A DNA stretch of 30,371 nucleotides from Bodo saltans (Eukaryota > Euglenozoa > Kinetoplastea > Eubodonida > Bodonidae). The translations under genes were made by a program, and so were the position numbers. Of this stretch, positions 1,096 to 29,846 are shown piece by piece. Within the stretch, counting starts at the first letter, position 1. Each line of letters begins with the position of its first letter. The stretch covers positions 1 through 30,371 of the forward strand of contig CYKH01001881.1 in assembly GCA_001460835.1 (NCBI GenBank). The letters are read 5' to 3'. The notes under the pieces were generated by a model that worked only from the letters and a program-made list of their open reading frames with translations, was not told the DNA's origin and ran no database searches.

Positions 1096-1149
1096 CACCC
1101 CCCACTCTATATACCCAATCGGAAAATATATACCCGATCGGATATAGCC

Positions 1150-1569
1150 CATGTTCTCTCTGCACTTACCGTCGTATTGAAAGCCCTTCGAGACGTTCCT
1201 ACCGGACTGTCTTTTGGAATTTCTTCATCGGTGTCGGTATGCGGGTTTATGGGACCTGCTGCTTGTAAGGTGTTTACAGTAGTGTCCACAAATGTCCCCC
1301 ATGCATCCATCATGGCGAGGCTGGTGCCCGAGTTTCATAACGTCCTTGGGAACTTGCGTGTCCTCCTGACGTGGCGAGCAACAGAAGTTGCGAGGCTCGA
1401 GCAGCGAACATTGTTTCGAAAACTTCCAGTTGCTCTAGGAATGCTTGATGAAGGTGCAGTGTACTGTGATTTCAAACCAATCGTGGAGATCCTCCTGCAG
1501 GGGGAAGAGGTGAATGCTCCTCCCTACGGATTTGGTGTCGTACCAATGGCACCTCGACCAAGGCAATGA
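1150..1569 (+). pseudogene. Cyclase-like receptor, copy A: C-terminal relic
   Basis: From 1150 the frame encodes about 139 residues closely matching the C-terminus of copy B at 1985-4351. Both begin at the HVLSAL motif of the cyclase-like domain, and both contain SSSVS.CG.MGPAACKVFTVV, then STNVPHA, MARLVP and LLTWRA. The last half of the cyclase fold is therefore present. The Cache-like domain, both membrane segments, the linker and the first cyclase half are absent. Homology starts exactly where the inverted-repeat element ends, and the residues read upstream in this frame come from the repeat itself. The TGA is at 1567-1569. There is no credible start, so it is a relic, most probably of a tandem duplicate of copy B, its nearest relative in the window. 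Confidence 0.8.
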
Positions 1570-1908: not shown

Positions 1909-1956
1909 TATCTCTTCTTTTTCTTCGCATTTTTTTGTCGCGCAACACATCACTAG
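1909..1956 (+). promoter_or_regulatory. Probable spliced-leader acceptor for copy B
   Basis: A C/T-rich tract (tctcttctttttcttcgcat and the following T-run) is followed by the first AG at 1955-1956, about 29 bases before the ATG at 1985. This is the expected layout of a kinetoplastid trans-splice site. It is inferred from layout only. The remainder of the 1570-1984 spacer shows T-rich 3'UTR-like sequence and no gene. Confidence 0.4.
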
Positions 1957-1984: not shown

Positions 1985-4351
1985 ATGCGGATTTCTATCA
2001 AAACCTTCGTTGCTCTCCTTCTCGTGGTTGTGTCACTTATCGCCCTAGTACTATCTAGCGTGCCCACGATTGACCAAGTCCATGACAACGCAATGAACTT
2101 TGTCCTCCAAGCTGCCGAAGGGTCAGCGGACCAAGCCCAGTACGTTTTAGCCGCACAGCTCTTAAAGCTGCGTAAATTTGGTGACGTGTTGTACAAAGCC
2201 GCGCAAAATCCCGATATCATCAGTGGTCTTCAGCCGTGGCATCTCGTCAGCTGGGCAGGCCCTACAGTCTCTGCAAACGACTTTGGTGTCACACTCTTCC
2301 GCCAAGATGACCGTGGATTCGTCCTGACCGCTTACAATACAGTTTATGGAATCACACGACCAGGGTACATTTTTCTTACCAATCTATCAAACCCCGGTGT
2401 CAGCATTACCACCGGATTCTTTTCGCCGAACTCTCCCTACATTCCGGGAAATATTACGTCCCCTTGGACAGTGTCCAACAGTTCCGTACGTTTTAGCATA
2501 GAGCCAGTGGGTCTTGCGTTAACGCAACCAAATCGAAGTTTGTCCATGCAGTGGGTGGGCCTTACGGCACTTCAAACGACCCCTACGACGGTTCTGTCAC
2601 TTCTTACCTACGGGGGCCCGATTCACGTCGACCGGGACGCATCTAATCGGCAGTATCTGTTGACGAGCATGCGAGGCACTGCCCTTTCCAACTACCTAAA
2701 AGCCATGCCGATAAGCCAGAGCGGATCTCTTGTGTTGTTTGATCTTGTGACTCGATCGTTCGTTGCAGGGAGTGTGAGCGACATTGGCGCGTCCATTGTG
2801 AATAACGGTACAACGCCCAGACTCACCCCATTAAGCAGCGTGCGCGATCCGCGAGTGGCGTCCATTGTTCATGCCTCCTTCGCCGCAACCGACGCACAGT
2901 GGGGAAACACTCCTCTCACAAACACTGGGCTCTATGCACTCGTAACGTGTGTCACGCCCTGTACGTTCGTCTACTGGCCACACGACAACACACTGCGGCA
3001 AGGGCAATTTTGGTCAAGGTTCAATTTAGATGTCCTGGTGCATTCCTTTGTCGCGGTGCGCGTTGTGGATGTGAACGATGGTGCCACCCATTCCTCCTCC
3101 TCCACAACTGCAATGGTCATGAACCTCCGACTCATGGTGACCGTTCCCTCTGACGATATTGTGCAAGAGTACATCAATGGCGTCCAAGACAGCTTGCTGA
3201 TATCGTTTGTTGTCATCTGCGGCCTTTGCATCCTCACCACCATTGTCGCCCATTTTGTCTTTGCAGCGTTGTCGTACATGGAGCAGGACATTTTGGGGCT
3301 TGCGTGGGTGTTTTTATTCTCCCCGATGGAATCACATGTTCGTCCTCACCTCGACGGAGAAAAACAACAAAGCGGTGACGTCAACCTAGCGATGATGTCT
3401 GTATTTAAAGAATACAGTCGGATTTGGAGTGCCCTCAAGGCGCTTTCACGAGCCCTGTACACATTGCGTGCATTCTCGCCCGCTGTTGTAACGACCCCTG
3501 CTGTGAGTCATTCCGCGACAACAGTATCCAATAAAGAAGTGTCTACCATCGGTGCTGGTGTTTCTAGGGGTGCTGTGTCGCCCAGTGAGTCATCGTCGTT
3601 GCGGGGTTCTATCTCCTCGCCCCAAGCGATAGCCATCGACGGGTCACAGTCGCCAAAGTTCATTGAAGTCCCTTACAGCTTGAATCGCAATGCCAACATT
3701 GAATCCTCAGGGCTGTGGCATGTGCCCGTGACGTCTATGTTCGTCGTCATGGATCCGTTTATGTTTGACCCGCAGACTGAGGACCCAATGGCCATCCACA
3801 CAAACCACAAAGTCATATTAGAAGCATTCCAGAAGTTCGTCGGCCAAGTCCCTGGCGCTTCCATCGATCAGTTTTATGGAAATCGGATTCTCATCCATCT
3901 GAACGCGTCCGGACGGGCGCACAAGCACGTGCTATCGGCGCTAAGCATTGCGTTGAAGACATTGCGTGTGGTGCCGCAAGGTGTTTCTGTTGGAGTATCT
4001 TCATCAGTGTCGCTTTGTGGGTACATGGGACCAGCAGCATGTAAAGTGTTTACCGTTGTGTCTACGAATGTCCCTCATGCGGCAGTGATGGCCCGACTTG
4101 TCCCTCAGTTGAAGACTTTGGGCGACCTCAGAATGCTGTTGACGTGGCGAGCGGTGGAGGCAGCGCAACAAGAGCAGCGAACACCATCGCGAAAACTTTG
4201 TGGGAGCGCCGCTATTGACCCGGTAGCGCTCAGCTGTGGCTTTAGGCCAATTGTAAAGGTTGGACTTTCGGGAGAGCAACCGTCCCTTCCACCCTATGCG
4301 TTTACGCTAGTAGTCCCCGCCCTGCCAAAGAACTTGAGCGACAATATCTGA
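1985..4351 (+). CDS. Transmembrane receptor with Cache-like ectodomain and degenerate class III cyclase domain, copy B (intact)
   Basis: 788 aa. The ATG at 1985 was chosen because copies D and E start at the same aligned residue (M..S[IV]K..); the longer frame from 1871 has only a TTG. Residues 7-27 form a membrane anchor. Residues 28-403 are extracellular and resemble a double Cache sensor (PW...SW, then SMRGTALSNYL and a strand ending FVAGS), with several N-glycosylation sequons. Membrane segment 2 is about 404-427. A helical linker ending SRALYTLRAFSP resembles the HAMP-like connector of transmembrane cyclases. Residues 580-783 match the class III cyclase fold: VTSMFVVM strand, IDQFYGN, HLNASGR, SSSVSLCGYMG, FTVVS, MARL. 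The first metal Asp is Val588, the second is Asn633, the transition-state Asn is Ala700, and Arg704 is kept. Catalysis is therefore unlikely; a sensing or dimerising role is inference. Confidence 0.8.
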   Translation: MRISIKTFVALLLVVVSLIALVLSSVPTIDQVHDNAMNFVLQAAEGSADQAQYVLAAQLLKLRKFGDVLYKAAQNPDIISGLQPWHLVSWAGPTVSANDFGVTLFRQDDRGFVLTAYNTVYGITRPGYIFLTNLSNPGVSITTGFFSPNSPYIPGNITSPWTVSNSSVRFSIEPVGLALTQPNRSLSMQWVGLTALQTTPTTVLSLLTYGGPIHVDRDASNRQYLLTSMRGTALSNYLKAMPISQSGSLVLFDLVTRSFVAGSVSDIGASIVNNGTTPRLTPLSSVRDPRVASIVHASFAATDAQWGNTPLTNTGLYALVTCVTPCTFVYWPHDNTLRQGQFWSRFNLDVLVHSFVAVRVVDVNDGATHSSSSTTAMVMNLRLMVTVPSDDIVQEYINGVQDSLLISFVVICGLCILTTIVAHFVFAALSYMEQDILGLAWVFLFSPMESHVRPHLDGEKQQSGDVNLAMMSVFKEYSRIWSALKALSRALYTLRAFSPAVVTTPAVSHSATTVSNKEVSTIGAGVSRGAVSPSESSSLRGSISSPQAIAIDGSQSPKFIEVPYSLNRNANIESSGLWHVPVTSMFVVMDPFMFDPQTEDPMAIHTNHKVILEAFQKFVGQVPGASIDQFYGNRILIHLNASGRAHKHVLSALSIALKTLRVVPQGVSVGVSSSVSLCGYMGPAACKVFTVVSTNVPHAAVMARLVPQLKTLGDLRMLLTWRAVEAAQQEQRTPSRKLCGSAAIDPVALSCGFRPIVKVGLSGEQPSLPPYAFTLVVPALPKNLSDNI

Positions 4352-4799: not shown

Positions 4800-7700
4800 A
4801 TGGACGAACCACGCACCGAAAGGCGAACCGTTGATCTTGATCGTCCGCCGCTTCGACCAGAACTTCAACTTGATACCAAACCAACGGTGGCAACTAGCCT
4901 GACAAACAGGTTACGTGAGAAGGCGCCAGCGGCATTGGATGGAACGTCTCCTCCTTCACTTAGTTATCATGAAGGGGGTCACCATGTCTGGTCGCCTCAG
5001 CCCTCCAGCTCTAATTTAGTTAGTCCTCAAATACCACCGCCGATGTTCCGCGATGGCACGTTTGCGTACGTGGATGATGCAATGACGCCGTTAGCAGCAG
5101 GGCAGTCTACCACCACACCGTTGACGGCGTTTGCTGCAACAGCTCATCCTACGCCAGTCGGACATAGCCAGCAGCCCACTACACACTCAACCACACAGTA
5201 TCCCGATGCTGTTCTTCGACTCTCATCACTTAGTGTGACTCACGCAGACGGTACCAGCACACGCCCCACGACCGCTGCTCCGATGTACGCGTCTGCTCGT
5301 GGCCTCATCGCGGAGTTCGACGAGGAGGTTTCATACGGCGGTGGCCATCCAGCAGGAGGACAAGACGAAGACTACGATGATGACGATGATTCATGGATTC
5401 GGCGCCAAGCAACTGAACCAACCCCAGGACCACATCTCATCCCAACTTCCATCCTACACCGCGTCAGTGGTCAAGAGACTAACGTTTATGGAAGTGGAGA
5501 TCAGCGAATCCCCTTAGCACAAGATGCATTCCAAACACCAACCACGCCAAGTCCTCAGCGCCCCTTGTTTCCACTCTCCACCGATGAGGATACGTTTCGC
5601 CCAGCCACACGGCTCTACACTGCAGAACACACCGTCTCCGGATTATGTACCCCAGTTCAGCCTGGAACGCCAACAAGACAGCAACACACACCGGACAAGG
5701 CGGACTTGTCGAGTCCCACCGCACGATTTCCCTCAGATTTCCCCTCAACAAGTGCATCCAGCCCTCCACCACCGACGCCAATGAAAGCCCGAGGAAGTGG
5801 TGGTGGCCTCTCTCGCATGACGACCCCTCAGCCGTACGGCGCTTGTTTTACGTCCACGACGCCCTCCCGTGCTGCGTCCATGCCGCTGCTCAACCGTCAG
5901 GCGTCCCCGGGAGCTGGTTGTGGAGGTCTATCTCCACAGAACCACCTTACTGTCAACGTCAACCCATTTTCTCAAATTCAAGGACAAATCCAAGAGCTGC
6001 ACATCACACCAACCCCAGTCTCGAAGCCTACTGGCGTTTGCGACTGCAGCATCGATGACGATGCAGAGAACATCGGAGACGAGGAGTTGATGAGCCCGTT
6101 GATGAATGACGCAGCCCTCTCCGCTGCTGCTCGCTCAAGTTCACCAGGCGGCGGCCTACTGTCCCACACTCGGGTTGCGGTTCGCAGCCAAGCATCTCGC
6201 ACGTCATCTTCTAGCGCAATGCAACACCAGACGAGCGCCATGTTAATGTGCCCCCCTATTCATTCCCCAACGTCTGGAGGTTCAGGCATGGCTCAGTTCC
6301 CGTCCATGCTATCGTACGTGGGATCAGCAGAGCGCACTCCACGGACTAGCACACGATTGGGACACAGTCGTGCAGTTTCAATGGACATGGGGTCTTTTAG
6401 CCACCAAGGAGGAGGCCTTACAGTGCCCGCACTTGAGCATTCACCGAGCTTGGTAGGCGCAGGTGTTCCGTTTGCTCGTGCACCTCCTAAACTTACCACG
6501 ATGCACCCGTTGTTGGGATCGCCTGATACTCTGGAGGCGACAATGGAAGGACCCCGAGGTCCCCTTGAAGGCCAATCTGGAAATAGTAATGCTGCAAGGA
6601 CATACCACCACAACTACGCAACACACACAGCGGGCAGCCTTCATCAACCATCATTCATGTCCTCTCCTCCGTTCGCCCCACGCGATGAAGATCCACAGAG
6701 CAGTTGCGCTCCTCCTCTTGGCTCACCTACCACTGATCCCCCGGAGTATTACGACGTCATGCAGAGGCTTGACTTCCAATCAGAGGACAGCGACAACGAC
6801 CACGCACAACAAAGGAGCGCCACGAGGAAAATTCATCAATCCGCTAACGGTTCGCGTGAATGCTCATCGTCGCTTCCCGCAGCACTGCGGAGCGATGTAG
6901 AGGACCTCAGCCTGCACAGTAGCACTCGCAGGCCGTATGAACGCAGCACATTACTTGACACGTCTGATGAGATGTCGCCGGTCTCGCCGTGTCCTCCCAG
7001 TCAGGTTTTCCCCCATGCAAACAACGAGCTACTCACTTTTCCGCCACGTGCAACGGAATCGCATGTGCTGTATGAAAACTTCACAACTCAACCTCGCTTT
7101 CCGTTACCAGTTTCTGCAGCCGTGGATCAGTTTTCCCCACGCTTCAGTCATCAGTTGTCCTCACGCTCGTCAGCGAACCAGTTGCGCAGCACGTCATCCA
7201 CAACAGTCAACGATGACTGCATGACGGTTGGGTGCGGAACGTCGGTGGGTGGGCTTCACGACGAGGATGACGATGATGATCGCCTCGATGAGGAGCAGCA
7301 GCAGCATCAGCGACGCTACTCCGACGTCTCTCCTCCACGGTACTACGCAGAGCGTCGGTTAAGCGGTGATGAAGGAGGAGCGATGCCAACCGAACCACCG
7401 TTTCTTCTGGCTGACCGATACGATGACGACGATGAAAAGAAACGGTTCATGTTTGCACACGAGGACCCACGGCACAATGACGGGAGCAAATGTCTCGTGC
7501 CCCTCCACATCGACGTGAACGGTGTCGTGTGGTTGGCGACCCGCACCATCGACGGTCAGCATTACGCAGTGAAGGAAGTGCCACTTGTCACCGTCTCAGT
7601 CGGTGAAGTCGGCGACGAGTCGACTGCCCTGGCGTCGCCACACGCGCAGTACCTCGATGTGGAGTTAGAGTGCCTGACCATCAGCACCGCACATGCGACA

Positions 7701-10328
7701 GCACTTGATGGCATTCGTGCCGCTGATCACATCGTCCGATATCACTCAAGTTTCGAATTCCCCTCACGTGCCTCAAGCTTTCTTCGCGGCCAGCGAGGAG
7801 ACACAGCCCCATCCATCCCGCCACAAGTGATGACCTTGCAGCTCGAGTATTTCCCCCGCGGTAATGTAGCAGAGGTGTACGCGGCACACTGGCAAGGCCC
7901 ATTGATTGTCCTGCACAACACACTACGAGAACGCTGGCAACGAGAGCACCGACCTAAGGCAGTACAACAACGGAACACAGCGGTATCGTTAGGTTTGTCG
8001 CCGCGAGTCAGTGTGCATCATGGATGGCCGATCAAGTACGAAAAAGAAGCGCAGCATACACTGTCCTGGCTTGTGCGTGAAGTCTTGCCCTCACCGTTGG
8101 AACTCTTGACGATGCTTCAGCACACTGTCCTTGCACTATCCTGCTTGCATCATAGAGGAATTGTTCACGGTTGTCCGACACTATGGAGCCTGCACATCGT
8201 GACGAACTATCACTACAAGTTGAGCAACTTTGGTGCCGCCCGCCGTGTTCCACCAGCGGCTTTGCTGTCCATGGCTGGGCCCGGTTGGGTGGATCAATTG
8301 TTTGGGTCCTGCCCAACAGAGCTCTTACCTGCGCCAGAGAAACTGTCGCGCATGACTCCACAGCAAGTCGATTTGCATGTTGTGGCAGCTTCTGTTCTTC
8401 GTTTCATTTATGTTGCGATGAACAAAGTTGCAAAATGCTTTTCAGCCATTTTCTCGAACGCAAGTGGGCCTCCCACTGTTGAGCAGCTTCAACGTGCTGC
8501 ATTGTCGTCACAAGAAACGCTGAAATCTCCCTTATGTTCCTCTGGTCTGACACTGAATGCAACCCACCTGCTGACCGCTGCAGACACAGCGCACCTTCAC
8601 CCATACCGCACTGTCCGCCCTCCTGGCCAGCAACAGCCATCGTTGGACGATGACGAAGATGAAGTGTCCATTTCTCAACGCATTGTAGCCGTGCTAAACA
8701 TTATGCTGGAGGGCTCAACATCCTCCACAGACGAGCTTCTTGGGCCCGTGTACCTGGACTGCCCCTCGCCACTGGCATTCCAAGCTCAAAATGCGTATGA
8801 TCGCGATCTGATGGCGCTTCAAGCACGCATTCGCGCGCTCGAAGAAAAGAAGGCAATGTTGCAGCGCAAAGAGAAACGCGATGCTGCAGTAGAACGTCGG
8901 TCCCAATCTCCATCACGTAGGAGCGCAACAACAACACGCGTGCTGGATGGTGTGAATGAAGACTCGCCACCGCCATCGTCTTCCGCGTTCGAAGAACGAA
9001 ACGACAGCATCCTTTCTGACGATATTGTTGGGCCACCATGCGCAAAAGGCCAGCGAATCGACCCTGCTGCCGTCCGTAGCCCAACAGCGCTCCAACCAAC
9101 TGCTTCTCCAGATAACAACGCAATATCACTGCACAGACGACCTCCGTTGACGACGAGCAATGCGTCGTCGCTGCAAGTATCTCCGGTCGCGCGCCCGAGC
9201 AGCTCGTCGAGTGTTCCAATGTCGTCGCTAAGCCTTCCTGGGGCAGCAACAAGTCTCGCCTCTCGACCTCCTCCTACAACCCCGAAAACAATCACGTCAG
9301 GGTTTAGCAGCGGTGCGTCTACACCCAGGTCCTCCACAACAACAGGGAACAACTCCTTTACAGGAGCGTCGCTGTTCGGCAACTTTGCGAGTGCCACGAC
9401 TCTTGGGAGTAGTGGTCACAATTATGGGTTCTCTCAGCAGCTGCGCTCTTCTGGTGCAGTCCCCCAAATCCACAGTGCACGGTCGTTTGGCAAAATTGCA
9501 ACGAGCCATGCTACTGTTCCTCCGTCTGCTCAGCTCGTCTACGACATCACGCAGCCGGCAACACATTCATCGGCATCAGGTCCACTCTCGGCAGCGTCAT
9601 CGTTTAACTCGTCCGCCGGCGGAAGTGGAGCAACTTCGTCCATTGATCTGAAAGGGCCGTCCCTTTTCCGCACTGAGCCTCGTGGCGTCGAAGGGTTTCA
9701 AGCTCTCCGTGTCTCTCAACATAGCAACTCTGGAGGAACTGCTGGTTTAGCCGCAGCTGCGCAAGATTGCTCATCCTCGACGTTGTCACAGAGATCTTCG
9801 ACGCAGCGTGCAGTCGTAGGTGTTCATCGCACAAACGATCACTTCACGGCTAGCGGCGATGAAGCCGCTGCTGCTTCACCTAGGTATCGTCATCATCTTG
9901 ACCCTGCGGCTTCTCACATCGGCCTTTCTGATCCCGACGCCGCTAGAGTCATCGGCGTCACGACGCCCCCTCTTGCGTCGCGGCCGTTCGTTCGCCGAGC
10001 CACCGCTGCGCCACCACCAAGTGCCGAGGACCAAGTTGTGCTGGCTCCCTACCCACTGTGCGACCACTTCCGTCCCGTTCGATTGATGTCGTCTTTGACA
10101 GTCAATGCCGTGCTGTCGTTTATCAGCAACACGATGCATCTCGAGGCATACTCGAGCTTTGGGACTACCGAGGAATGCAGCGGCGCTGTGTATCGGCGAA
10201 AATCGGTGTTCCCAGGGGTGCAACAGCGTCAACCGCCATCTCCGGGGCACAATCAGCGTGCGGTTTGGGCCATTGCTGCCCCCAAAACAATGAATGTCAT
10301 GAAGAATTTTGACTTTGCGTCTGCCTAA
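4800..10328 (+). CDS. Giant low-complexity protein with an embedded pseudokinase domain
   Basis: 1842 aa. Residues 1-900 are Ser/Pro/Thr-rich and probably disordered, with acidic runs near 195 and 820-835. A protein-kinase fold follows at about 905-1230. It has YAVKEV with the ATP-site Lys at 925, a hinge at LEYFPRGN (about 1015), an insert of roughly 65 residues, LHHRGIVHGCP (1117-1126) in the catalytic-loop position, KLSNFGAA with NFG at 1143-1145, and APE at 1178-1180. The HRD Asp is Cys1125 and the DFG Asp is Asn1143. No glycine-rich loop is evident. These losses mark a pseudokinase. A short charged coiled coil lies near 1335-1375, then another Ser-rich tail with a final ordered block at about 1765-1842. 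It is probably a scaffold or regulator. The ATG at 4800 is the first in frame after a plausible splice acceptor. The kinase fold is clear; the role is not. Confidence 0.85.
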   Translation: MDEPRTERRTVDLDRPPLRPELQLDTKPTVATSLTNRLREKAPAALDGTSPPSLSYHEGGHHVWSPQPSSSNLVSPQIPPPMFRDGTFAYVDDAMTPLAAGQSTTTPLTAFAATAHPTPVGHSQQPTTHSTTQYPDAVLRLSSLSVTHADGTSTRPTTAAPMYASARGLIAEFDEEVSYGGGHPAGGQDEDYDDDDDSWIRRQATEPTPGPHLIPTSILHRVSGQETNVYGSGDQRIPLAQDAFQTPTTPSPQRPLFPLSTDEDTFRPATRLYTAEHTVSGLCTPVQPGTPTRQQHTPDKADLSSPTARFPSDFPSTSASSPPPPTPMKARGSGGGLSRMTTPQPYGACFTSTTPSRAASMPLLNRQASPGAGCGGLSPQNHLTVNVNPFSQIQGQIQELHITPTPVSKPTGVCDCSIDDDAENIGDEELMSPLMNDAALSAAARSSSPGGGLLSHTRVAVRSQASRTSSSSAMQHQTSAMLMCPPIHSPTSGGSGMAQFPSMLSYVGSAERTPRTSTRLGHSRAVSMDMGSFSHQGGGLTVPALEHSPSLVGAGVPFARAPPKLTTMHPLLGSPDTLEATMEGPRGPLEGQSGNSNAARTYHHNYATHTAGSLHQPSFMSSPPFAPRDEDPQSSCAPPLGSPTTDPPEYYDVMQRLDFQSEDSDNDHAQQRSATRKIHQSANGSRECSSSLPAALRSDVEDLSLHSSTRRPYERSTLLDTSDEMSPVSPCPPSQVFPHANNELLTFPPRATESHVLYENFTTQPRFPLPVSAAVDQFSPRFSHQLSSRSSANQLRSTSSTTVNDDCMTVGCGTSVGGLHDEDDDDDRLDEEQQQHQRRYSDVSPPRYYAERRLSGDEGGAMPTEPPFLLADRYDDDDEKKRFMFAHEDPRHNDGSKCLVPLHIDVNGVVWLATRTIDGQHYAVKEVPLVTVSVGEVGDESTALASPHAQYLDVELECLTISTAHATALDGIRAADHIVRYHSSFEFPSRASSFLRGQRGDTAPSIPPQVMTLQLEYFPRGNVAEVYAAHWQGPLIVLHNTLRERWQREHRPKAVQQRNTAVSLGLSPRVSVHHGWPIKYEKEAQHTLSWLVREVLPSPLELLTMLQHTVLALSCLHHRGIVHGCPTLWSLHIVTNYHYKLSNFGAARRVPPAALLSMAGPGWVDQLFGSCPTELLPAPEKLSRMTPQQVDLHVVAASVLRFIYVAMNKVAKCFSAIFSNASGPPTVEQLQRAALSSQETLKSPLCSSGLTLNATHLLTAADTAHLHPYRTVRPPGQQQPSLDDDEDEVSISQRIVAVLNIMLEGSTSSTDELLGPVYLDCPSPLAFQAQNAYDRDLMALQARIRALEEKKAMLQRKEKRDAAVERRSQSPSRRSATTTRVLDGVNEDSPPPSSSAFEERNDSILSDDIVGPPCAKGQRIDPAAVRSPTALQPTASPDNNAISLHRRPPLTTSNASSLQVSPVARPSSSSSVPMSSLSLPGAATSLASRPPPTTPKTITSGFSSGASTPRSSTTTGNNSFTGASLFGNFASATTLGSSGHNYGFSQQLRSSGAVPQIHSARSFGKIATSHATVPPSAQLVYDITQPATHSSASGPLSAASSFNSSAGGSGATSSIDLKGPSLFRTEPRGVEGFQALRVSQHSNSGGTAGLAAAAQDCSSSTLSQRSSTQRAVVGVHRTNDHFTASGDEAAAASPRYRHHLDPAASHIGLSDPDAARVIGVTTPPLASRPFVRRATAAPPPSAEDQVVLAPYPLCDHFRPVRLMSSLTVNAVLSFISNTMHLEAYSSFGTTEECSGAVYRRKSVFPGVQQRQPPSPGHNQRAVWAIAAPKTMNVMKNFDFASA

Positions 10329-17825: not shown

Positions 17826-17895
17826 AGGCACTTCATAGGGATCCTTCTTACAGCTCATCAATTTTTATTATCAACTCGTTTTGATAATTATCAGA

Positions 17896-19719
17896 GGCCG
17901 AAACACTTCGCGCCCGACCTCAGCGTTACTCACCTATGGTGGTCCTCTAAACGTTTCTACGGCATCGGACCCGCCAAGCCAGCGCCAAACCCTCTCCGTC
18001 AACGTTCGAGGAGAGACATTGTCAACACATTTCTCCAACATGACATGCCTGAAAGTTCGTGGCGCGGTGGCGCTTCTCATCGACACCGTTAGCGGTTCGT
18101 TCATTGCCGGAAGCATCAGTGACCCCACCAGTACCTACGTTGCTGGCCACCCTGTACTTATGAACGTAACAGCCCTTCGTGACCCAAGAATATTCCCCAT
18201 CCTGCATGCTAGTGCTGGAACTATGAGCGGTGCAGATGCGCTGCTCACGTGCTCCGTCCCGTGCCTCTTCACGTACTGGCCGCATCTTGATGAACTCCAC
18301 AGCGGCCAAGCTGTAGTGCCAATGGGTGTAATCGGGTTCCGCTTTACGACTGTGTATGTTTCACAAGTGGACTACAACACAGGTCATTTGTTAGATCTGC
18401 GACTGATTGTAGTGCTGCCATCCAGCAACATTATCGGAGAATTCATCGAAGGTGTGCGGTCAAGCTTGTACGTTCCTGCGGCTACCATCGCCTGCGTCAC
18501 CGTCGTGGTGGTCATCATCGTTTCTGTATTGTTCCGCGAATTAACGAAGGTGGAGCGACGTATTCGCAAACTTGCGTTTCAACTCCTTTCGGAGCCGCCT
18601 TTGAGTCAACGCTGCTGCTCTTGTGATGGCGGCGATGAGTGCTGCCCACATACCTCATCGTTGTCGCCGAGTGTTTTAGGCGTGACAGGAGCTACGAACG
18701 AGCACAAATCGGATGATCAAAGTGTGTTTTGTGAGCTGGATCGGATGATTGTCGCCATTCGAACGTTATCACGTGAATTGTTTACCCTCAGAGCATTTAC
18801 GACGGGCATGATGCCTCGTCCCAGTGCTACGATTGAAGGGCAACAGTGGCGGAGTGATAACAATGACACCGCCGTTCTCTCATTCTCTTGCGACGCAGAG
18901 TTCAGTCGTCGCTCGTTTGCTGCAGCATGCCGTTGTGTCCCGTACGATATTTCGGTCAACAAGACGTGGCGCGTTCCCGTCACGACAATTTACGCCCAGG
19001 TCGGCGCTGAATTTGTTGGAGCACTTCGGCATGCGCCGTATGTTGTGCATGAGCGGCTCCGCAGCGTGCTTGGAATTTTCCAGAAGCACGTTCGACGTAT
19101 CCCTGGAGCATCGCTCGATGCGTGCAGCGGCGATACGTTTGTCATTCATTTTAACGCGTCGGGGCGAACTCCGCGCCATGCGCTCGCTGCACTTAATTTG
19201 TCTGTAAAATGTGTTACTGAAGCGAGAACCCTCGCCATTCAATACCACCTGCACGATGACGTCATGAAAATGGACTCGCTAGGCAGCAGCAACATCAGCA
19301 GCTCGGGTCGTGAGATTCCTCTGGCCATAGGCATCGCTTCTGCTGTTGCCCTATGTGGAATGATGGGCCCACCATCGATGAAGACGTTTACTGTGGTGTC
19401 GTTTTGCGAATCGCAGGCGATGTTCTTGTGCAGAATTGCAAAGAAAGATGGACAACCCATTCTCTTAACATGGCGCGCTGTAGATTTCGCATTGCAGCAA
19501 ATGCAGAAAGTTTGCAAGCCAACAACAAGTGGAACTCCACCTGCGGCATCATTGTCGCCTGTGGATCCGTTCAATGACGATGACAGAAGTCAAGAAGATA
19601 TTCACAGCTTCTACTTTATTCCTTTTGCACATGCATACTTGCCGGGGGAATGGAACCGTGTTACCGACGTGTTCGTCCCAATCCTAAACCGGGCAGGATT
19701 GTATGGTGAGGCTCGATAA
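17896..19719 (+). pseudogene. Cyclase-like receptor, copy C: 5'-truncated
   Basis: Homology to the family starts at RNTS (about 17896), equivalent to the middle of the Cache-like domain, and continues in one open frame to a TAA at 17717+2000 (19717-19719). The membrane anchor and first Cache half are missing, and the first in-frame ATG is at 18040. What remains is the second Cache half (TYGG, NVRGETLS, FIAGS), a membrane segment near 18466-18545, the linker ending LSRELFTLRAFT, and a cyclase-like domain from about 18970. The first metal Asp is Gln (18997-18999), the second Asp is kept in SGD (19132-19134), and the transition-state Asn is Met while its Arg partner is kept. With no membrane-insertion signal it is unlikely to make a working receptor, although 600 codons remain open. 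Confidence 0.75.
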
Positions 19720-21384: not shown

Positions 21385-22077
21385 ATGCAACTTTCTGTTA
21401 AAGTTGTAGTAGGAGCACTGGTCATTCTCACGTCACTACTGTCTGTCATGTGTGCGTTGATTCCTCCAGCGCTCCAACTCCCAAGTGAGGCCATGACGTT
21501 TGTGGTAGACACTGCCGCTTCCGTTTCTGACAAGATTCAATTTAGCTTAGCCGTTCAGCTTCGGACAGTAAAATCTTCATGTGACACGCTTTTCAAAGCT
21601 GCGAGTGAACGAGATCTTCTTACGCCAAATAACGCATTGGAGCCTTGGCAATTTCTAGCTTGGACAAGTGGAATTGTTGCGCGAGACAACGTCACAGTCA
21701 TTCTTGGTCGGTTGGACTGGCGTGCCATTATTGTATCACCATACAACACTCTGTTTTCTGGGGACGCTAGCCAAGGGTACGTCGGGGCGATACCTGGCTA
21801 CGTGTTTCTTTACGTTGCGAGCTCCCCTGGGCACTATGTAAACTACGGATTCTTTCAAGTTGATGCCCCTCATCTGCCAGCCAACGCGACGCATCCGTGG
21901 GCAAATTATTCAACGGGATTTACACTGGAAAATCAGCCAATGGTCCCAAAGATTCTTGAGAACTCACCCAACCGCACAACCCCTATGCAATGGACAAGTC
22001 TTTCTGTGCGCAACACGTCGTCCCCCTCCTCGGCGCTCATCACGTATGGAGGGTCGTTTAGTTTGCCCATCGCATAG
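21385..22077 (+). pseudogene. Cyclase-like receptor, copy D: N-terminal part before a frame break
   Basis: 230 codons from an ATG at 21385 aligned with the starts of copies B and E. Residues 5-27 form the membrane anchor (VVVGALVILTSLLSVM), followed by the first part of the Cache-like ectodomain. Landmarks shared with copy E are CALIPP, VQLR, DTLFKAAS.RDLLTPN, LEPWQFLAWTSG and the TYGG motif near the end. The frame ends with TAG at 22075-22077 directly after PIA. Alignment to copy E (TAIDNASRTQ) shows that the protein continues one base back as ID followed by a matching segment. The lesion is therefore a one-base loss at 22074-22075 in an otherwise intact gene, or an assembly error. A short upstream ATG at 21363 opens an 11-codon out-of-frame uORF. 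Confidence 0.75.
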
Positions 22078-23732
22078 ATCCCAAAAGTCGTGAGCAACTG
22101 ATTATGGTTAACCTTCGCGGGGAATCACTCTCCGATTTCTTTTCCCACGTTCATGTGTCTGCAACAGGAACTGCCATCTTAGTCGATGCGGTAAGCGGTG
22201 CATTCGTCGCTGGAAGCGTACGAGATGCGACTGGTGCGTACACCGCCGACGAGGAACCCCGTCTTGTCAATGTCACAGAGTTGCGCGACCCTCGGATTTC
22301 CTGCATTCTTCACGCAGAGGCTGTACTGGAAGAGAACGCTCCCCAGGACTCTGTAAGAAGCGCATCTGAGGCCCTTCTCTCATGCACTCCGCCCTGTCTG
22401 TTTACCTTCTGGCCACATCTTAACCAACTTCATGAAGGGCGAGACATAGTACCATTGGGCGTGATTGGGTACCGCTTTAGCACGGTCTGCGTGACACGAG
22501 TGCAGTACGCTGCTGGGGCAAAGTTGGACCTTCGACTTGTCGTCGTCCTTCCCTCCGATGATGTCCTTGGCGTGTTCTTAGCAGGGTTGTACTCCAGTCT
22601 TTACTCCCCACTGGCAACAATCGTGTGCGTCACAGTGGTTGTGATACTCAGCGTCTCGTTGGTATTTCGCCAGCTGATCGACGTTGAGCATCGTATTCAT
22701 GAACTCGCATGCACGATGTTGATTCCGTCCCGTGAACCGGTGACATTGCTTGGCTCTTCCATTTCCGTAAACTCTGGAGAGCCGCCAATGAAAAGCATGT
22801 TTTCGGAGTTTGATCGTCTTGCTCGTGTCCTTCATGCGTTGAAGCGAGAGTTGTTTACCCTTCGCGCATTTACATTTCGCTCATTTGACCAATCTAATGA
22901 AACGACAACAACCACCGAAGGAGGCGTCAGTGAGAACCCCCCTCCCACAAGTCGGATGCCTCGCGAGCATTCTTCGGATGCCTCGCGAGCCTCCTCATGC
23001 ATCCCTTACGACTTAGCTGTTAACGCGACGTGGAGAGTGCCTGTGATAACAGTGCGCGCAGAAATTGGGAGCGCCCTCCTTGGCGCCCTTCGCCTGGATC
23101 CTCTCGTGACGTACCACCGGCAACGTGACGTCCTTGATGTCCTGCAAACACACGTCAAATCGGCGCCTGGTGCATCGGTTGATTACTTTGGTGATCGCTT
23201 CGTTGTGCACCTCAACGCATCTGGTCGCACCCCACGACATGCCCTTGTCGCATTGTCATTGTGTACACAGTCTGCAGAAGATATTGCACGACTAGCAGAA
23301 GCGTACTGCAACAGCGAAGCCACACCACGTTCAGGTTTCTCGAGTCCTCAACCGTGTGAGTTGCCCTTCGTGTGCGGCATTGCGTCGGCAGTTGCCGTGT
23401 GTGGCATGATGGGCCCTGCAGCGATGAAAGTATTCACCGTCATCTCTGTTGGCGAATCGCAAGCAATGTTCCTTTCCAGAATTGCCAAAGTGGATCGCCA
23501 CAAGATCCTGTTGACGTGGCGTGCTGTCGACTTTGCAATGCAGCAAATGGCATTCCAACGATTGGTATCGACAGCAACACTGACCGAGTTACCTGCTGGA
23601 CGTAGTCTTTGCGCTAATACTCACAGATACACGTTTGTTCCTGTAGCAAAGGTCTATCTGCCTGGTGAGTCTGATCGCTCATCCCATGTGTATGCGACTG
23701 CGACGCCAGAACAGGAGAAAACCTTGCCGTAA
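22075..23732 (+). pseudogene. Cyclase-like receptor, copy D: remainder after the frame break
   Basis: This is in phase with the ATG at 22104 and open to a TAA at 23730-23732. It carries the second Cache half (NLRGESLSDFF, FVAGS), a membrane segment near 22605-22670 (ATIVCVTVVVILSVSLVF), the linker ending LKRELFTLRAFTF, and the cyclase-like domain from about 23035. The first metal position is Glu (23061-23063) rather than Asp, the second Asp is present in FGD (23193-23195), and the transition-state Asn is Met with Arg kept. The linker contains a 16-bp direct repeat (22953-22968 and 22975-22990). Together with the first part it would make about 780 residues, the same size as copy B. Starting at 22104 alone would give a protein without anchor or first Cache half. 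Confidence 0.75.
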
Positions 23733-24049
23733 AAACCACAAAGGCAATAAGGGTGACGACTGTGATAAAAATGGTGCTAGGATCTTGGCGCGAGCAATGG
23801 CGAATCTCACGCACTGGTCTCCTGCTGGTTGTCCGAGCATACAGTGCCAAAATAACAAACTTTTCAACTTCATTACCTCCGTTCACTTTAACTATCCACG
23901 TATGGCGGCAAATGTGACTTAACCTCCTATTTCTTGTAGAGCGTGTGTTAAATTCCTCTCGATTCTATCATTTGCTCTCTTTCGTAGTTTTGCTTCTGGG
24001 GGCTCGTCAGCTCATCAATTATGGGCGACCAAGAAATCTTGTCAGAAGA
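23733..24049. other. Intergenic spacer with trans-splice-like acceptors and a uORF
   Basis: Acceptors are plausible at 23923-23939 (cctcctatttcttgtag) and at 23970-23987 (tgctctctttcgtag). An ATG at 24021 opens a 16-codon frame (stop 24069-24071) that overlaps the chosen start at 24050 in another phase. No other gene was seen. Confidence 0.4.
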
Positions 24050-26800
24050 ATGTCTACAGTTTCCAATTTAACCCATACGTTTGTTGCCCGTACGACACAC
24101 CTTGCACATTTGATTGTGCTGCTAGCGATGGTGAGCGCGCTCCTTCACGCCCAGGAATTGGATCGTGCTGCACTTGTTGCCTTCTACTCAGGCACTAATG
24201 GCCCCACCTCGTGGAACAGTAGTATTCGCTGGGACACAGCCAACAGTTCCTCTAACTCATGCAACTGGTACGGAGTGACATGTGGTAGCGGTGGACGCGT
24301 CACCAAAATTGTCCTTCGCAATGCGGGCTTAAGTGGCACACTTCCGCCCTTGCTTGGCACCATAAAGAAACTGAACAACATAGACCTTCAAAGCAACCGA
24401 TTATCTGGTATTGTTCCGAAAGAACTCGCGAACTGCACGAACCTCATAGAACTTCATCTGCAAGTAAATCGGCTTAGTGGCACTTTTCCGCCAGAGTTTT
24501 CGTCGCTCTCACAGCTTTCCATCTTTCACATGTCCAACAACTCGTTGTACGGAACGTTGCCGTCGTCGTATCAATCACTTACACAACTCACATCCTTTGA
24601 AGTTGACCAGAATGAGCTGACTGGGACGCTACCTCCTGAATACTCTGCATGGAATAGCATTCAATCGTTTTATGCAGATCGAAATGGGTTCACTGGATCA
24701 CTGCCACCAGAGTACTCGGCGTGGAAATCCATCGTGACATTTCGTACGTTTATCAACCCGCTCACTGGGACGCTTCCTGAGTCCTATGGCAGCTCGTGGA
24801 CGAATGCGGTGTCCGTGTTTATTTACACCACAAATATCAGCGGCTCAATTCCCGGTGAGTGGGGCGGAATGACTTCACTGTACCAGTTGCAAATCTTCAA
24901 CAACAAACTCACCGGCACTATTCCTGCTTCCTTTGGCAACTTCACAAAACTGTACTACATCAACCTCTCATTCAATAATCTCACTGGCGAAGTACCGTGG
25001 GCAGCCTGGTCCAAACTACGTGGCGTCGATGTCTTCGGCTTTCAAGACAATCCGTTGCTCTCTGGCACGATACCGATTGGCTTCAGTGATGTTCTTGTTC
25101 CGTTCCTCTCGATGGTATCGGTGTGTCGGACAAGAATCTGTGGTCCTCGGCTGCCAGCGTTAACGCTCGGATACGGGTGTGTGCCGCCATCGTTTGTCAG
25201 TTCACTGGGTGAGATTACCACAGCAGCAATGTCGTCAATGGTGCAGATTGCGACGTATGAACCATCGTTTTCGTGTGAGACGCCCCAACCCACACTGACA
25301 CCGCGTGCCCGTGACGTCACTCGCACTGTACTCGTCGTCCCACCTCCTGCACCACACAGTGACCACGCTGCAAGCCTCGCCACCTCTGGGCCCACCGTCA
25401 CCGCTTCGCTTGTTGTGGTCTCTCAGCTGATCTCTGGTGCTGCTGCATCAGCCGGTGGCTTGCACGCGATGCAAGCGTTGATGCGCATTCAGCGTCTTCG
25501 TGATTTATGTGTCGCTCAAAATCAATTATCATCATCATTATCGACATCGAGTTCAGGCGACGATGACGATGGCTCCTCATCGGATTGCTGTGATGAACTC
25601 ACAAGTCCATTGCACTTGACCATCGATGTCAATGGGAACAGCGTTGGGGAAAAGGAAGCAGGCGCACTCATTGGAAACACAATTGCGCTTGTTGTGTTTG
25701 GCCTCCTTCGAATAGTCGGCCAGTGGACTGTTCATCGATTCAAGCAGCAGCACAGCACCGCGAATTTCGAGAAACGTGAAGCCTCGACTATCTTCCACCA
25801 CGTCACAACAGCATTGATCGCTTGCTTTTCCTCAAAGAACATTTCTACCATCTGGCCAGCCTACACCTTTTTGATCTGTCCTACGGTTGGTGTTTGTTGC
25901 ATGCTGCTCCAAGTAGGAAACAGCGATGGGCTGTTTGTGGCGGTCGCCCTGCTAGCACTGTGGACGATTCCTTGCATCGCGGCCAACGTTGGGCTTGCAT
26001 ACAACGAACACCTTCAAAAGGCGGCACGTTCATTTTCACTGTGCTCAGTTGAAACACATGAAACAAAACTTCGGTCAAGCGTGCTCACTGCAGCATGGCA
26101 ACGCATGAAAGACTTCTTGCTACAGCCAACGGAGGAGCTTGAGTTTTCCAATCACGTCATTGCCAAAGCCATTGAGCATGCCTACGGAGCGGTGTTGTTT
26201 GGCTTCCGGTCGTCGCGTCTTTGGTACTTCAACGTGGAGCTGTTCTTCGGTATTGCCACTGGAGTGTTGATTGGGGTGACCCTCAGCAGCTCGGATCCAT
26301 GTAGTATTAACACCGTTGGCTGGATCATGGCCGCTGTTGGCCTACTGGAGTGTGTGTCGGCGTTCTGCATCCGACCTTACTGCGCCCCAGTTGACTTTGT
26401 AGTTCTTGCCGTTGTCAATGGGCTCTCAGTAGTCTCGCAGATGATCGCTCTTATGGACGATAGCAGCAGCGCCCAAGTCGCGTCTGTGGTTTTAGGACTT
26501 GTTGCCAGCGGCTTTCAGTTGGTGGTCAGCGTGTTGCTCGCAATCGATGGGTGTTCTGGCAGCTCTGTCTATCACGCGGCTTCTGTCACAAAACATGACG
26601 CCACCACAATGGTTGCAACTTCCAAGGAAAGAGCAAGACGACGAAGTCGTTCATGTAGTCGAAGTAGCGATGCAACTCGAAACTGCACAACAGAAAACAG
26701 CAATGCTTCAGAATTTCAACACGGTGCTCTCGTCATCTTAATTCGCACAATCTGTAACTCTGCTGGTGATGCTGCGTCCTCATCAATATTCAAGTGGTGA
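24050..26800 (+). CDS. Plant-type LRR ectodomain protein with multi-pass membrane C-terminus
   Basis: 916 aa. ATG 24050 is the first in frame and gives a signal peptide (LIVLLAMVSALLHAQ, residues 20-35). An N-terminal LRR cap follows (ALVAFYSG..., SCNWYGVTC) like the LRRNT_2 cap of plant receptor ectodomains. About ten 23-25-residue repeats of the L.G.lP...g.l..L type run over residues 88-345. Two successive repeats share PPEYSAW, suggesting recent internal duplication. A Cys-containing C-cap lies near 360-385. From about 453 onward seven or eight hydrophobic segments follow (near 453, 541, 600, 627, 723, 757, 782 and 809), and the tail is Arg/Ser-rich. There is no kinase domain. It is probably a surface protein; kinetoplastids are known for LRR surface proteins such as the PSA family. 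Ligand and role are unknown. The frame is open upstream to 23945, but only with a GTG. Confidence 0.8.
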   Translation: MSTVSNLTHTFVARTTHLAHLIVLLAMVSALLHAQELDRAALVAFYSGTNGPTSWNSSIRWDTANSSSNSCNWYGVTCGSGGRVTKIVLRNAGLSGTLPPLLGTIKKLNNIDLQSNRLSGIVPKELANCTNLIELHLQVNRLSGTFPPEFSSLSQLSIFHMSNNSLYGTLPSSYQSLTQLTSFEVDQNELTGTLPPEYSAWNSIQSFYADRNGFTGSLPPEYSAWKSIVTFRTFINPLTGTLPESYGSSWTNAVSVFIYTTNISGSIPGEWGGMTSLYQLQIFNNKLTGTIPASFGNFTKLYYINLSFNNLTGEVPWAAWSKLRGVDVFGFQDNPLLSGTIPIGFSDVLVPFLSMVSVCRTRICGPRLPALTLGYGCVPPSFVSSLGEITTAAMSSMVQIATYEPSFSCETPQPTLTPRARDVTRTVLVVPPPAPHSDHAASLATSGPTVTASLVVVSQLISGAAASAGGLHAMQALMRIQRLRDLCVAQNQLSSSLSTSSSGDDDDGSSSDCCDELTSPLHLTIDVNGNSVGEKEAGALIGNTIALVVFGLLRIVGQWTVHRFKQQHSTANFEKREASTIFHHVTTALIACFSSKNISTIWPAYTFLICPTVGVCCMLLQVGNSDGLFVAVALLALWTIPCIAANVGLAYNEHLQKAARSFSLCSVETHETKLRSSVLTAAWQRMKDFLLQPTEELEFSNHVIAKAIEHAYGAVLFGFRSSRLWYFNVELFFGIATGVLIGVTLSSSDPCSINTVGWIMAAVGLLECVSAFCIRPYCAPVDFVVLAVVNGLSVVSQMIALMDDSSSAQVASVVLGLVASGFQLVVSVLLAIDGCSGSSVYHAASVTKHDATTMVATSKERARRRSRSCSRSSDATRNCTTENSNASEFQHGALVILIRTICNSAGDAASSSIFKW

Positions 26801-27106: not shown

Positions 27107-27523
27107 ATGCCGCTGCCTTTAAGAGACAGCGAACCTTCTTCTCATTTTGATCGGGAAAGATCACTGCATGTTGGCCCACAGTCGCCTAGAGAAACAAAGC
27201 GTTCTCGTGTCCCTCTTCCGCACAAAACTCTTTTCGCCCTGGTGGTGGTTAGTCTTATCGCGACACTCATTATTCAACAGTCGCCGCAGCAAGAGCTGAC
27301 ATTGAAATCGTCTTATTATGTGCGCCAAAGTGTGTCTACAGTGCAACGTACTTTTGGGGGTTGCTTTGAGCGGTTTCCGTTCATACATAACGGAGGCTTC
27401 CGGCGTTTCAACGCTTCTTTTGTAGATTTGCTAGTGTTGCCGCAAACAGACATTGCGACGTTGCGGAAAAATCTAAGCACATGCTCCACAACCATGCCAT
27501 ACATCTCTGACATTGAATTGTGA
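27107..27523 (+). CDS. Type II membrane protein, possible family 61 glycosyltransferase, N-terminal part
   Basis: 138 codons from ATG 27107, the first after the acceptor. A basic, hydrophilic N-terminus of about 38 residues is followed by one membrane segment (TLFALVVVSLIATLII, about 40-57) and a lumenal stretch. This is the layout of Golgi glycosyltransferases. The frame stops with TGA at 27521-27523. The next frame, one base back, opens at 27517 just after its own TGA at 27514-27516, so the switch must lie within about seven bases. The two parts together make about 450 residues, typical of GT61-like enzymes. The break may be a one-base loss or an assembly error. On its own this part has no catalytic region. 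Confidence 0.55.
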   Translation: MPLPLRDSEPSSHFDRERSLHVGPQSPRETKRSRVPLPHKTLFALVVVSLIATLIIQQSPQQELTLKSSYYVRQSVSTVQRTFGGCFERFPFIHNGGFRRFNASFVDLLVLPQTDIATLRKNLSTCSTTMPYISDIEL

Positions 27524-28461
27524 ATAACACCCTCGCACACGAAGATCCAGTTCGATCTTCTGTGGAAGAGGTAGAGCTCGTCGCAGCTGTTTGGAGGCAA
27601 TGGCCCCACGCACCCTATCACGGGTTGTTCCGTCCTGGCGTGATTTGGTTTCACTCTATCCTTACTCGTTTCGCTGCTTTTCATGGAGTTGTACCCCACC
27701 GCCACGCGAAGCTACGGACAGTTGTCGTTGACAGCCATCCAGCACTACCCTATCCCCCTATCATTCACGAGATCAAAAATTTGTTGCTGGACGAACGCAT
27801 TTCTGATTTCAATATGAGCGACGGTAGTGTAGTTCCCATCTCACGATCTCGAATTGTGTTTGTGCATTGGACGACATTCCGGAACATTGATTGGGTGTTG
27901 ATCAATTCCACAGTGAAGGCAGTGGACCTTGAGTTGCGGGTAAGGTTTCCGGAGCCAGCCGGCGTGGATAAACAAAGCGTGTTCGTTGAAAAACGAACAT
28001 TCAGCCATCGCTCCCCGCATAAGCAATTTCGTGGTTACCGTCCTGAGGTGTGGAGCGTGATTAAACTTGTGGCGGCGAAGAACAACCTTACGTTGGATGT
28101 GGTGGATCTAGGCTCGCTCACGTTCGCACAGCAATGGAACACCCTTCACAAGAGGAAGTACATGATTGTGACGGAGGGATCGTTTTCAGTTTGGATTCCT
28201 TTTTTACGAAGGGGTACTGTCTGTTTGATGATTTATGATCACTACGGAAATGGACGGCATATTCCGCGTGTGCATCTCCCTTTGGCACTCCTAGGGGACC
28301 GAAAAATGAAGATGGTGTTCGTGTCGATCTTCAACAGCAGCATTCCCACGGAGGAGGTGCTGACCACGGCGCTACTTCTTGGCGATCCATCTCCTCAAGT
28401 GTCGGTTCTCACCGTTCCGTACGACGCCGCTGTTCAACGTCTCTCACATTTTTCTGTGTAA
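27517..28461 (+). CDS. Possible family 61 glycosyltransferase-like catalytic part (after frame break)
   Basis: About 314 codons to a TAA at 28459-28461. There is no ATG at the beginning, which fits continuation from the preceding frame. The C-terminal third resembles GT61/DUF563 proteins: LDVVDLGSLTFAQQWNTL is followed by a strand, YMIVTEGSFSVWIPFL, then RRGTVCLMIYD. In GT61 proteins the corresponding motif is usually HGAG(L), followed by a hydrophobic strand after a P-G turn. Here it reads TEGS, so the fit is partial. The N-terminal part contains WRQWPHAPYHGLFRPG with aromatic clusters. If real, it would transfer a sugar in the Golgi lumen. Family assignment is tentative, and the altered motif leaves activity in doubt. 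Confidence 0.5.
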   Translation: MVNNTLAHEDPVRSSVEEVELVAAVWRQWPHAPYHGLFRPGVIWFHSILTRFAAFHGVVPHRHAKLRTVVVDSHPALPYPPIIHEIKNLLLDERISDFNMSDGSVVPISRSRIVFVHWTTFRNIDWVLINSTVKAVDLELRVRFPEPAGVDKQSVFVEKRTFSHRSPHKQFRGYRPEVWSVIKLVAAKNNLTLDVVDLGSLTFAQQWNTLHKRKYMIVTEGSFSVWIPFLRRGTVCLMIYDHYGNGRHIPRVHLPLALLGDRKMKMVFVSIFNSSIPTEEVLTTALLLGDPSPQVSVLTVPYDAAVQRLSHFSV

Positions 28462-28771: not shown

Positions 28772-29846
28772 ATGCTGGTGTCGATTAAGGTTGTCATCGC
28801 CACGCTCCTTATCACAACCACCATCGCGGCAATGATATGTGCACTCATCCCACCCATTATTCACCTGCAGGACGATGCTATGGACCTCGTTGTGAACTCT
28901 GCCACCTCCACCGGCGGCAGTCTTCAATTTGCCCTGGCGGCTCAGCTCCGACGCGTCGGAACTTCGTGCAACACGCTTTACAAGGCCGCCTCCAGTCGTG
29001 ACCTTCTCACCCCGAACGGTGTCTTGGAACCTTGGCAGTTTCTTGCTTGGACAAGCGGGCTGATCGCGGACAACGGCTATAGCATTTCATTGATACGGCC
29101 AGATGGGCGTGGCTATGTGCTGGCTCCCGACAGCACGGTCGTCGATGGCAGCGCGTTGCCAGGGTACGTCTTTATTTCCCGTATTACTGACCCTGGGGTG
29201 GGGATGGACTACGGCTTCTTCCGTGTTGGAGTTCCTCCCACCCCAGCCAACCTCACGAGCCCATGGACGAATCTTTCCACCACCGTATCGTGGGTCGATC
29301 AGCCGATGTATCACAAGCTTATTAGTGACGTCAATCGCACGTCAGTGATGGCGTGGACAAGTCTCTCACCGCGCAATTCGTCTCGTGCCAGCTCATCGTT
29401 GTTAAGCTACGGCGGTCATTTTACAGTCCCTACAGCAATTGACAACGCTAGCCGCACACAAATTCTTTCCATTAACCTTCGTGGTGAGGCGCTGTCGGAT
29501 TTCTTCTCCACCGTGCCTTTTCGTCTCGCAGCCAGTATCCATTGGTATTGCATCGGGTGTCGCAACCTGTGGGCTGTTGGGGCCGCCAAGGTTACGACGA
29601 TTCACCGTTGTATCGCCTAGCGAGTGTCAAGCTTCGTTTATGGCGAGACTTGCGACGGTCGAGCGCCAGCCTATTCTCATGACGTGGAGAGCCGCAGAAT
29701 TAGCACGACAACAGCATGACCAGCGCCACACCGATGCTGCCGTTAAGGTGCAGCCATTTGCATTCGTCCCGATTGCAAAGGTTGTGCTGTCTGGGGAGGA
29801 AGCCTTTCCTGAATGTTCGACAGATGCATTTGCGCCTGTCGTCTAA
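28772..29846 (+). pseudogene. Cyclase-like receptor, copy E: large internal deletion
   Basis: The ATG at 28772 begins a frame aligned with copies B and D: membrane anchor at residues 5-27, then Cache-like ectodomain with LEPWQFLAWTSG, SYGG and NLRGEALSDFF (to about 29515). The sequence then jumps to the last part of the cyclase-like domain, read one base forward from about 29531. That part contains PVSIGIASGVATCGLLGPP, FTVVS, MARL, LMTWRA and FVPIAKVVLSGE, ending with TAA at 29844-29846. Compared with copy D about 1.2 kb is missing: the second Cache half, membrane segment 2, linker and first cyclase half. The original frame ends at a TAG at 29618-29620. The product would be a 282-residue anchored half-sensor. 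The transcript-processing signal upstream still looks intact. Confidence 0.8.

Follow-up and report, generated by a model that had tools for sequence, protein, structure and literature searches.

On the 30,371-nucleotide contig CYKH01001881.1 of the kinetoplastid Bodo saltans (the window; one whole contig, C735, of the 29.3-Mb, 934-contig assembly GCA_001460835.1), an intact gene here called copy B encodes a 788-residue receptor whose C-terminal domain has the fold of a class III cyclase but whose active site, judged by alignment, is gone: both metal-binding aspartates and the transition-state asparagine-arginine pair are lost. Copy B belongs to a family of pseudocyclase receptors that itself lies within a wider set in the genome. 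Our preferred reading, to which we assign a probability of roughly 60%, is that copy B acts as a transmembrane receptor, from a kinetoplastid family, with its class III cyclase fold serving as a non-catalytic module that works by protein contact.

Fold, catalytic positions and constraint in copy B

The fold is recognized by profiles rather than by the single sequence. Copy B alone matches no Pfam family at E<=1, so that the curated cut-off of PF00211 (Guanylate_cyc) is not reached, and a phmmer search of the PDB gives no matches; single family members yield only two Pfam matches below cut-off (E 0.12 and 0.21), both to unrelated families and taken as chance. With a profile of the copy B family, however, 7/7 PDB matches are class III cyclases, as are 26 of 26 after addition of two bridge sequences, and Cya2, CyaC and sAC are among the top matches. 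A weak predicted model of the cyclase domain likewise finds class III cyclases in 50 of 50 among the matches listed. Bridges C115b and C737 themselves exceed the PF00211 cut-off, the family matches outer members of its wider clade at 99.5% in hhalign (score 145.6 vs at most 21.0 in 40 column shuffles, a control run on core columns), and single outer domains find copy B directly at E 9.6e-4 and 1.3e-3. The class III fold, which begins after residue 576 and had been proposed in an earlier sequence-only reading of this DNA, is thereby confirmed; the direct match to PF00211 or dCache_1 sought as a check on that reading is missing for copy B, and PF00211 is passed by the bridges.

Catalytic positions were read against CyaC (1wc0) in 12 MAFFT runs, comprising three modes and four overlapping sequence sets and hence not independent. 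All 12 place Val588 at the first metal-binding aspartate (Me-D1), Gln629 at the lysine position, Asn633 at the second metal-binding aspartate (Me-D2), Thr690 at the base contact, Pro697 at the transition-state asparagine and Val701 at the transition-state arginine. Of these six residues CyaC shares only Thr690, at the variable base-contact position. The printed HMMER profile alignments to CyaC and sAC run without gaps over the Asn/Arg region and also give Pro697 and Val701. The sequence-only reading had the metal positions right in Val588 and Asn633, but its placement of the asparagine at Ala700 and its retained catalytic arginine, Arg704, both give way to the residues just named. Arg704 sits three residues past the arginine position, which Val701 occupies in the MAFFT and HMMER alignments alike; since it is kept in 7/8 family copies, with Gln there in 5/9 outer rows, it looks like a feature of the family rather than a catalytic relic. 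Copy B thus shares with class III cyclases the fold, the order of secondary structure and a profile alignment that has no gaps across the Asn/Arg helix, and differs from them in having neither the two metal aspartates nor the Asn and Arg that mark the enzymes, nor the lysine. The alignments restore none of the four metal and transition-state residues, and to this extent the dismantled site of the earlier reading stands.

The gene opens with an ATG and continues for 788 codons with no internal stop; when copy B is base-shuffled 2000 times the first stop always falls at codon 164 or earlier, which upholds the intact frame claimed previously. Two hydrophobic segments peak at residues 8-26 and 404-422, and five of the seven N-glycosylation sequons fall within residues 28-405. 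The order of parts is a transmembrane anchor, a divergent Cache-like ectodomain, a second transmembrane segment (TM2), a linker and the class III cyclase fold, after which the protein stops with no C-terminal protein kinase. No HAMP profile match follows TM2 at E<=1 in Pfam, either in copy B or in bridges C115b and C737. Anchor, membrane segment and cyclase fold therefore survive from the receptor plan of the earlier reading, its sensor is Cache-like by way of intermediates, and its HAMP-like linker finds no counterpart in Pfam.

The Cache assignment of the ectodomain proceeds through a chain of relatives. The family ectodomain matches C806b at 99.1% and C115b at 94.9% in hhalign, and C737 weakly at 5.3%; C115b matches C737 at 87.6% (without a shuffle control), and the dCache_1 match of C737 has E 2e-9, which falls short of the curated threshold. 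The comparison of C806b with C737 gives 0.25%, which counts against the chain by that route. Copy B has no direct dCache match in Pfam, the ectodomain profile finds no match in the PDB, and the AlphaFold2 (AF2) model of the ectodomain has a predicted local distance difference test score (pLDDT) of 33.2. The ectodomain may fairly be called Cache-like, through intermediates only, its membership in dCache being unproven.

Because synonymous differences are saturated (proportion of synonymous differences, pS, 0.73-0.80), dN/dS is not computable, and the proportion of nonsynonymous differences (pN) was instead compared by segment over five intact copies (10 pairs). The cyclase core (residues 576-734) gives 0.38-0.50, the ectodomain 0.39-0.51, and TM2 with the juxtamembrane part 0.42-0.55; the C-terminal end (residues 735-788) is looser at 0.45-0.61 and the variable linker stands at 0.55-0.74, while pS over all segments is 0.64-0.92. 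The core of copy B compared with its four intact paralogs gives 0.41-0.47, no looser than the others. The dead cyclase core is thus conserved to much the same degree as the sensor, and the proposal that the fold is retained under selection despite its dead site is borne out as ordinary constraint, with core pN close to that of the sensor and below that of the linker.

The pseudocyclase family and its relatives in the genome

A six-frame search with copy B finds at least 13 family copies: five in the window (A to E), three on contig C131, two on C82 and one each on C398, C762 and C698. Full-length frames are intact in five of the 13 (B, C131b, C131c, C82a and C762), the C398 copy runs off its contig end, and the remaining seven, four of them within the window, are truncated or have broken frames (A, C, D, E, C131a, C82b and C698); this is most naturally read as tandem copies being born and dying. 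Eight copies have alignable cyclase domains, those of A, E, C398, C82b and C698 being incomplete or split (by eye, C82b and C698 keep the GD motif and lack Me-D1, and C398 stops before GD). The Me-D1 aspartate, the asparagine and the arginine are absent in all eight, and the Me-D2 aspartate is kept in seven, copy B alone lacking it. Loss of the site is therefore family-wide and no trait peculiar to copy B, which corrects the sequence-only reading.

The window's family forms one clade in the tree (support 100/100). Its sister group is a pair of C806 receptors, on a branch that is not starred (93/88), and together with this pair it falls inside a 17-row Cache-type clade (99/97). In the same tree C842, C737 and C717 sit on long branches and are not securely placed. 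Outside the family a set of nine outer rows was aligned, with C806c, C302, C91, C673 (unalignable by eye) and C65 omitted; the set is partly redundant, C115a and C115b being 90% alike and C806a and C806b 55% alike. These rows have Asn at Me-D1 (9/9) and Asp at Me-D2 (9/9), never the arginine (0/9), and keep the transition-state asparagine in 3/9; among the omitted rows, C806c and C302 by eye also have Asn at Me-D1, and C91 has Thr. None of the 17 Cache-type rows has Asp at Me-D1, and none has a complete site. Gln or His directly follows the old asparagine position in 8/9 outer rows (L025, L028, L034, L044-L047 and L051 listed) and in 8/8 family copies. The Gln/His and the Me-D1 Asn of the outer members could possibly form a reshaped pocket. 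The simplest history suggested by the tree and these residues is that Asp was replaced by Asn at Me-D1, that this Asn was then lost in the window's family, and that Me-D2 was finally lost in copy B.

Complete cyclases are present elsewhere in the genome. Of 29 PF00211 matches, six have both aspartates, the asparagine and the arginine in sound context (C364, C208, C537a, C537b, the first domain of C296, and C382), all of them of trypanosomatid type by signature. Five further rows represent fragments of that type (C408, C147, two of C834 and the second C296 domain), one with Gly at Me-D2, and the remaining 18 either miss one or more of the four residues or do not extend over it. Asp stands in the Me-D1 column without the asparagine in C480, C143, C567, C360 and C522, some of which lack further residues; that of the second C296 domain is left uncounted because the domain lacks the first strand. 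We take these trypanosomatid-type cyclases, by their signature, to be of the ESAG4/GRESAG4 type. Like copy B they are cyclase-fold proteins of this genome, and in several a hydrophobic segment precedes the domain, judged by eye; unlike it they include six complete sites and are distant in the tree, and copy B has neither their FTDI...GD...VNxAAR site nor their kinship. In hhalign the family matches the trypanosomatid type at 19.6% (score 29.8 vs 21.6 in shuffles) and the outer members do so at 3.4% (score 23.1). A dCache_1 search of the genome finds only C737 and C115, a blunt test because the family's own ectodomains are also missed, and the absence of a complete-site Cache-type cyclase is provisional because the assembly may be incomplete.

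Two loci among these matches are distinctive. In C296 (L013/L017) the catalytic domain of a trypanosomatid-type cyclase is partly duplicated in one frame, which could be an assembly artefact. The top PF00211 match, C842:33956-34492 (L009), has Ala at Me-D1 and keeps Lys, Me-D2, Asp, Asn and Arg, an arrangement reminiscent of a C2 half.

A relay role and the alternatives to it

A template for the proposed function is provided by C91, an RDK1-like gene. Its cyclase region is degenerate, Thr standing at Me-D1, and lies between the sensor and a kinase that looks intact, HRD and DFG motifs included (Pkinase E 6.9e-55). This cyclase region matches the outer profile at 95.4% in hhalign (score 56.6 vs 24.8 in 40 residue shuffles), and the copy B family is linked to C91 through outer members only. 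RDK1 of T. brucei, as outlined in PMC8519429, consists of a sensor-like region, a transmembrane segment, a cyclase-like segment and a kinase, a plan stated there to be conserved in Bodo saltans, and C91 is likened to it by architecture only; loss of the RDK1 kinase triggers differentiation in T. brucei, according to the summary in PMC3894213. RDK1 and C91 combine ectodomain, transmembrane segment and cyclase-like domain in one receptor as copy B does, but have a protein kinase after the cyclase region, where copy B ends. The most likely job of copy B, by analogy, would be the relay role that the plan of C91 suggests. The Cache-like ectodomain would bind a small ligand, TM2 and the linker would carry the signal across the membrane, and the pseudocyclase, presumably as a dimer, would rearrange to control a separate effector by protein contact; copy B having no fused effector, this partner would act in trans.

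If this is true, a whole receptor set with a cyclase fold signals without cyclic AMP or cyclic GMP, which would explain the cyclase-like domain inside RDK1, and the role of a cyclase fold after cyclising has stopped becomes a testable question. Genome editing by CRISPR has been reported in Bodo saltans (PMC9544060). It also means that annotation by fold overcounts cyclases, most PF00211 matches of this genome showing no complete site. More tentatively, and with the odds somewhat against it, one may envisage a kinetoplastid superfamily in which the fold became non-catalytic before expansion: a Me-D1-Asn ancestor with a reshaped pocket (Asn, Asp, Gln/His) would have given rise to some kinase-joined receptors (RDK1-like) and to the window's family, which, with copy B furthest along, would have lost the pocket and would act by surface contact. 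Among the matches listed in a literature search (titles and partial abstracts) there is no published description of a pseudocyclase receptor family, although one may still exist, and the word "cyclase" is absent from the main text of the Bodo saltans genome paper (PMC4728078).

Since class III domains function in dimeric form, an active site may be tuned by a degenerate one, as reported for NeoR/RGC1 (PMC12264004); with six complete cyclases in the genome, copy B might accordingly dimerize with an active cyclase and block or tune it as a dominant-negative or allosteric partner. This appears unlikely, the complete cyclases being of trypanosomatid type and far from the Cache-type clade both in the tree and in hhalign, and that clade having no row with Asp at Me-D1. 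Dominant-negative and pure sensor or scaffold roles are both conceivable for copy B. A contribution to catalysis is a different matter. In C1/C2-type pairs the aspartates come from one half, and the residues for base contact and for the transition state from its partner (summarized in PMC12264004 and PMC6027212), and in NeoR/RGC1 the aspartates come from NeoR and the base residues from RGC1 (PMC12264004). NeoR/RGC heterodimers and mammalian C1/C2 resemble copy B in having one degenerate site or half; copy B, however, has neither residue set apart from the variable Thr690. Because the residues of both halves are missing, a C1/C2-type catalytic role is unlikely and copy B is rejected as such a half; the heterodimer suggested by the sequence-only reading finds no support on this ground, no complete-site Cache-type cyclase having been found in the assembly either.

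The dead pocket might instead have been reused as an allosteric site for a nucleotide or other ligand, in keeping with the uniform Asn and Asp at Me-D1 and Me-D2 of the nine outer rows (redundant in part, as noted) and with the Gln/His beside the old asparagine position there and in the family. The Me-D1 Asn is present in 0/8 copies of the window's family, and copy B has lost the Asp as well, so the argument is at its weakest for copy B, and we regard such reuse as rather improbable here. Decay of the family, with copy B a recently dead gene whose frame is still unbroken, would agree with the seven broken or truncated copies of 13 and with the loss of Me-D2 in copy B alone; it is nonetheless very improbable, since core pN for copy B is no higher than among its paralogs and lies below that of the weakly constrained linker. 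Cyclase activity of copy B through an unusual site can hardly be credited, the apparent completeness of the fold being all that speaks for it against agreement with CyaC at one of six tested positions. Non-catalytic relay by protein contact is therefore preferred.

Features of the window

The window has long open frames, the main ones all on one strand, which fits a kinetoplastid genome, as do the trypanosomatid-type cyclases and the RDK1-like gene; coordinates of copy B, its parts and its relatives are collected in Table 1. A pyrimidine-rich tract followed by AG upstream of the copy B ATG is a possible trans-splice acceptor; an exact spliced-leader pattern has no match in the contigs searched, and leader arrays may sit on other contigs.

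Table 1. Positions of copy B, its domains and key residues, the other family copies in the window, and the C91 gene
Feature	Position	Strand	Basis or remark
Copy B, intact 788-aa pseudocyclase receptor	1985..4351	+	open reading frame
Pyrimidine-rich tract then AG, putative trans-splice acceptor	1910..1956	+	sequence reading
First hydrophobic segment, putative signal anchor (aa 8-26)	2006..2062	+	hydrophobicity
Cache-like ectodomain (aa 28-396)	2066..3172	+	hhalign chain via C806b, C115b, C737
Second hydrophobic segment (aa 404-422)	3194..3250	+	hydrophobicity
Juxtamembrane linker	3251..3493	+	ends in TLRAF-like motif common to paralogs; likened to HAMP from its position only
Variable low-complexity linker (aa 504-575)	3494..3709	+	weakly constrained reference, by pN
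Class III cyclase fold (aa 576-788)	3710..4348	+	profile search, predicted model, alignments
Val588 at Me-D1	3746..3748	+	12/12 alignments
Asn633 at Me-D2	3881..3883	+	alignments; Asp in 7 other alignable copies
Pro697 at transition-state Asn position	4073..4075	+	alignments
Val701 at transition-state Arg position	4085..4087	+	alignments
Arg704, not the catalytic Arg	4094..4096	+	alignments
Copy A, truncated C-terminal remnant	1123..1566	+	60% aa identity to B over 146 codons
Copy C, without 5' part	17839..19719	+	
Copy D, 5' piece of broken frame	21385..22077	+	
Copy D, 3' piece of broken frame	22104..23732	+	
Copy E, 5' piece	28772..29620	+	
Copy E, C-terminal piece	29535..29846	+	other frame
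C91 RDK1-like gene (L059, L048, L057)	C91:12935-17905		two hydrophobic segments round ectodomain, cyclase region, kinase

The next large frame downstream of copy B, at 4800-10328 (+), encodes 1842 residues and contains a kinase-like segment at 7497-8669; protein kinases make up 8/8 of its PDB matches at E<=1, with PLK3 the best (E 0.0072). With HGC in place of HRD and NFG in place of DFG, this segment looks like a pseudokinase. A weak Glyco_transf_61 match (E 6e-4, below cut-off) lies at 27520-28461 (+). The bodonin multigene family, as outlined in PMC4728078, has about seven transmembrane helices after a repetitive ectodomain, and copy B with its two hydrophobic segments is ruled out as a bodonin by topology. 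A 951-residue leucine-rich repeat protein at 23945-26800 (+), has an LRR_1 match at E 6.1e-15; with the several hydrophobic segments that can be made out by eye, it is similar to the bodonin/PSA proteins of that paper.
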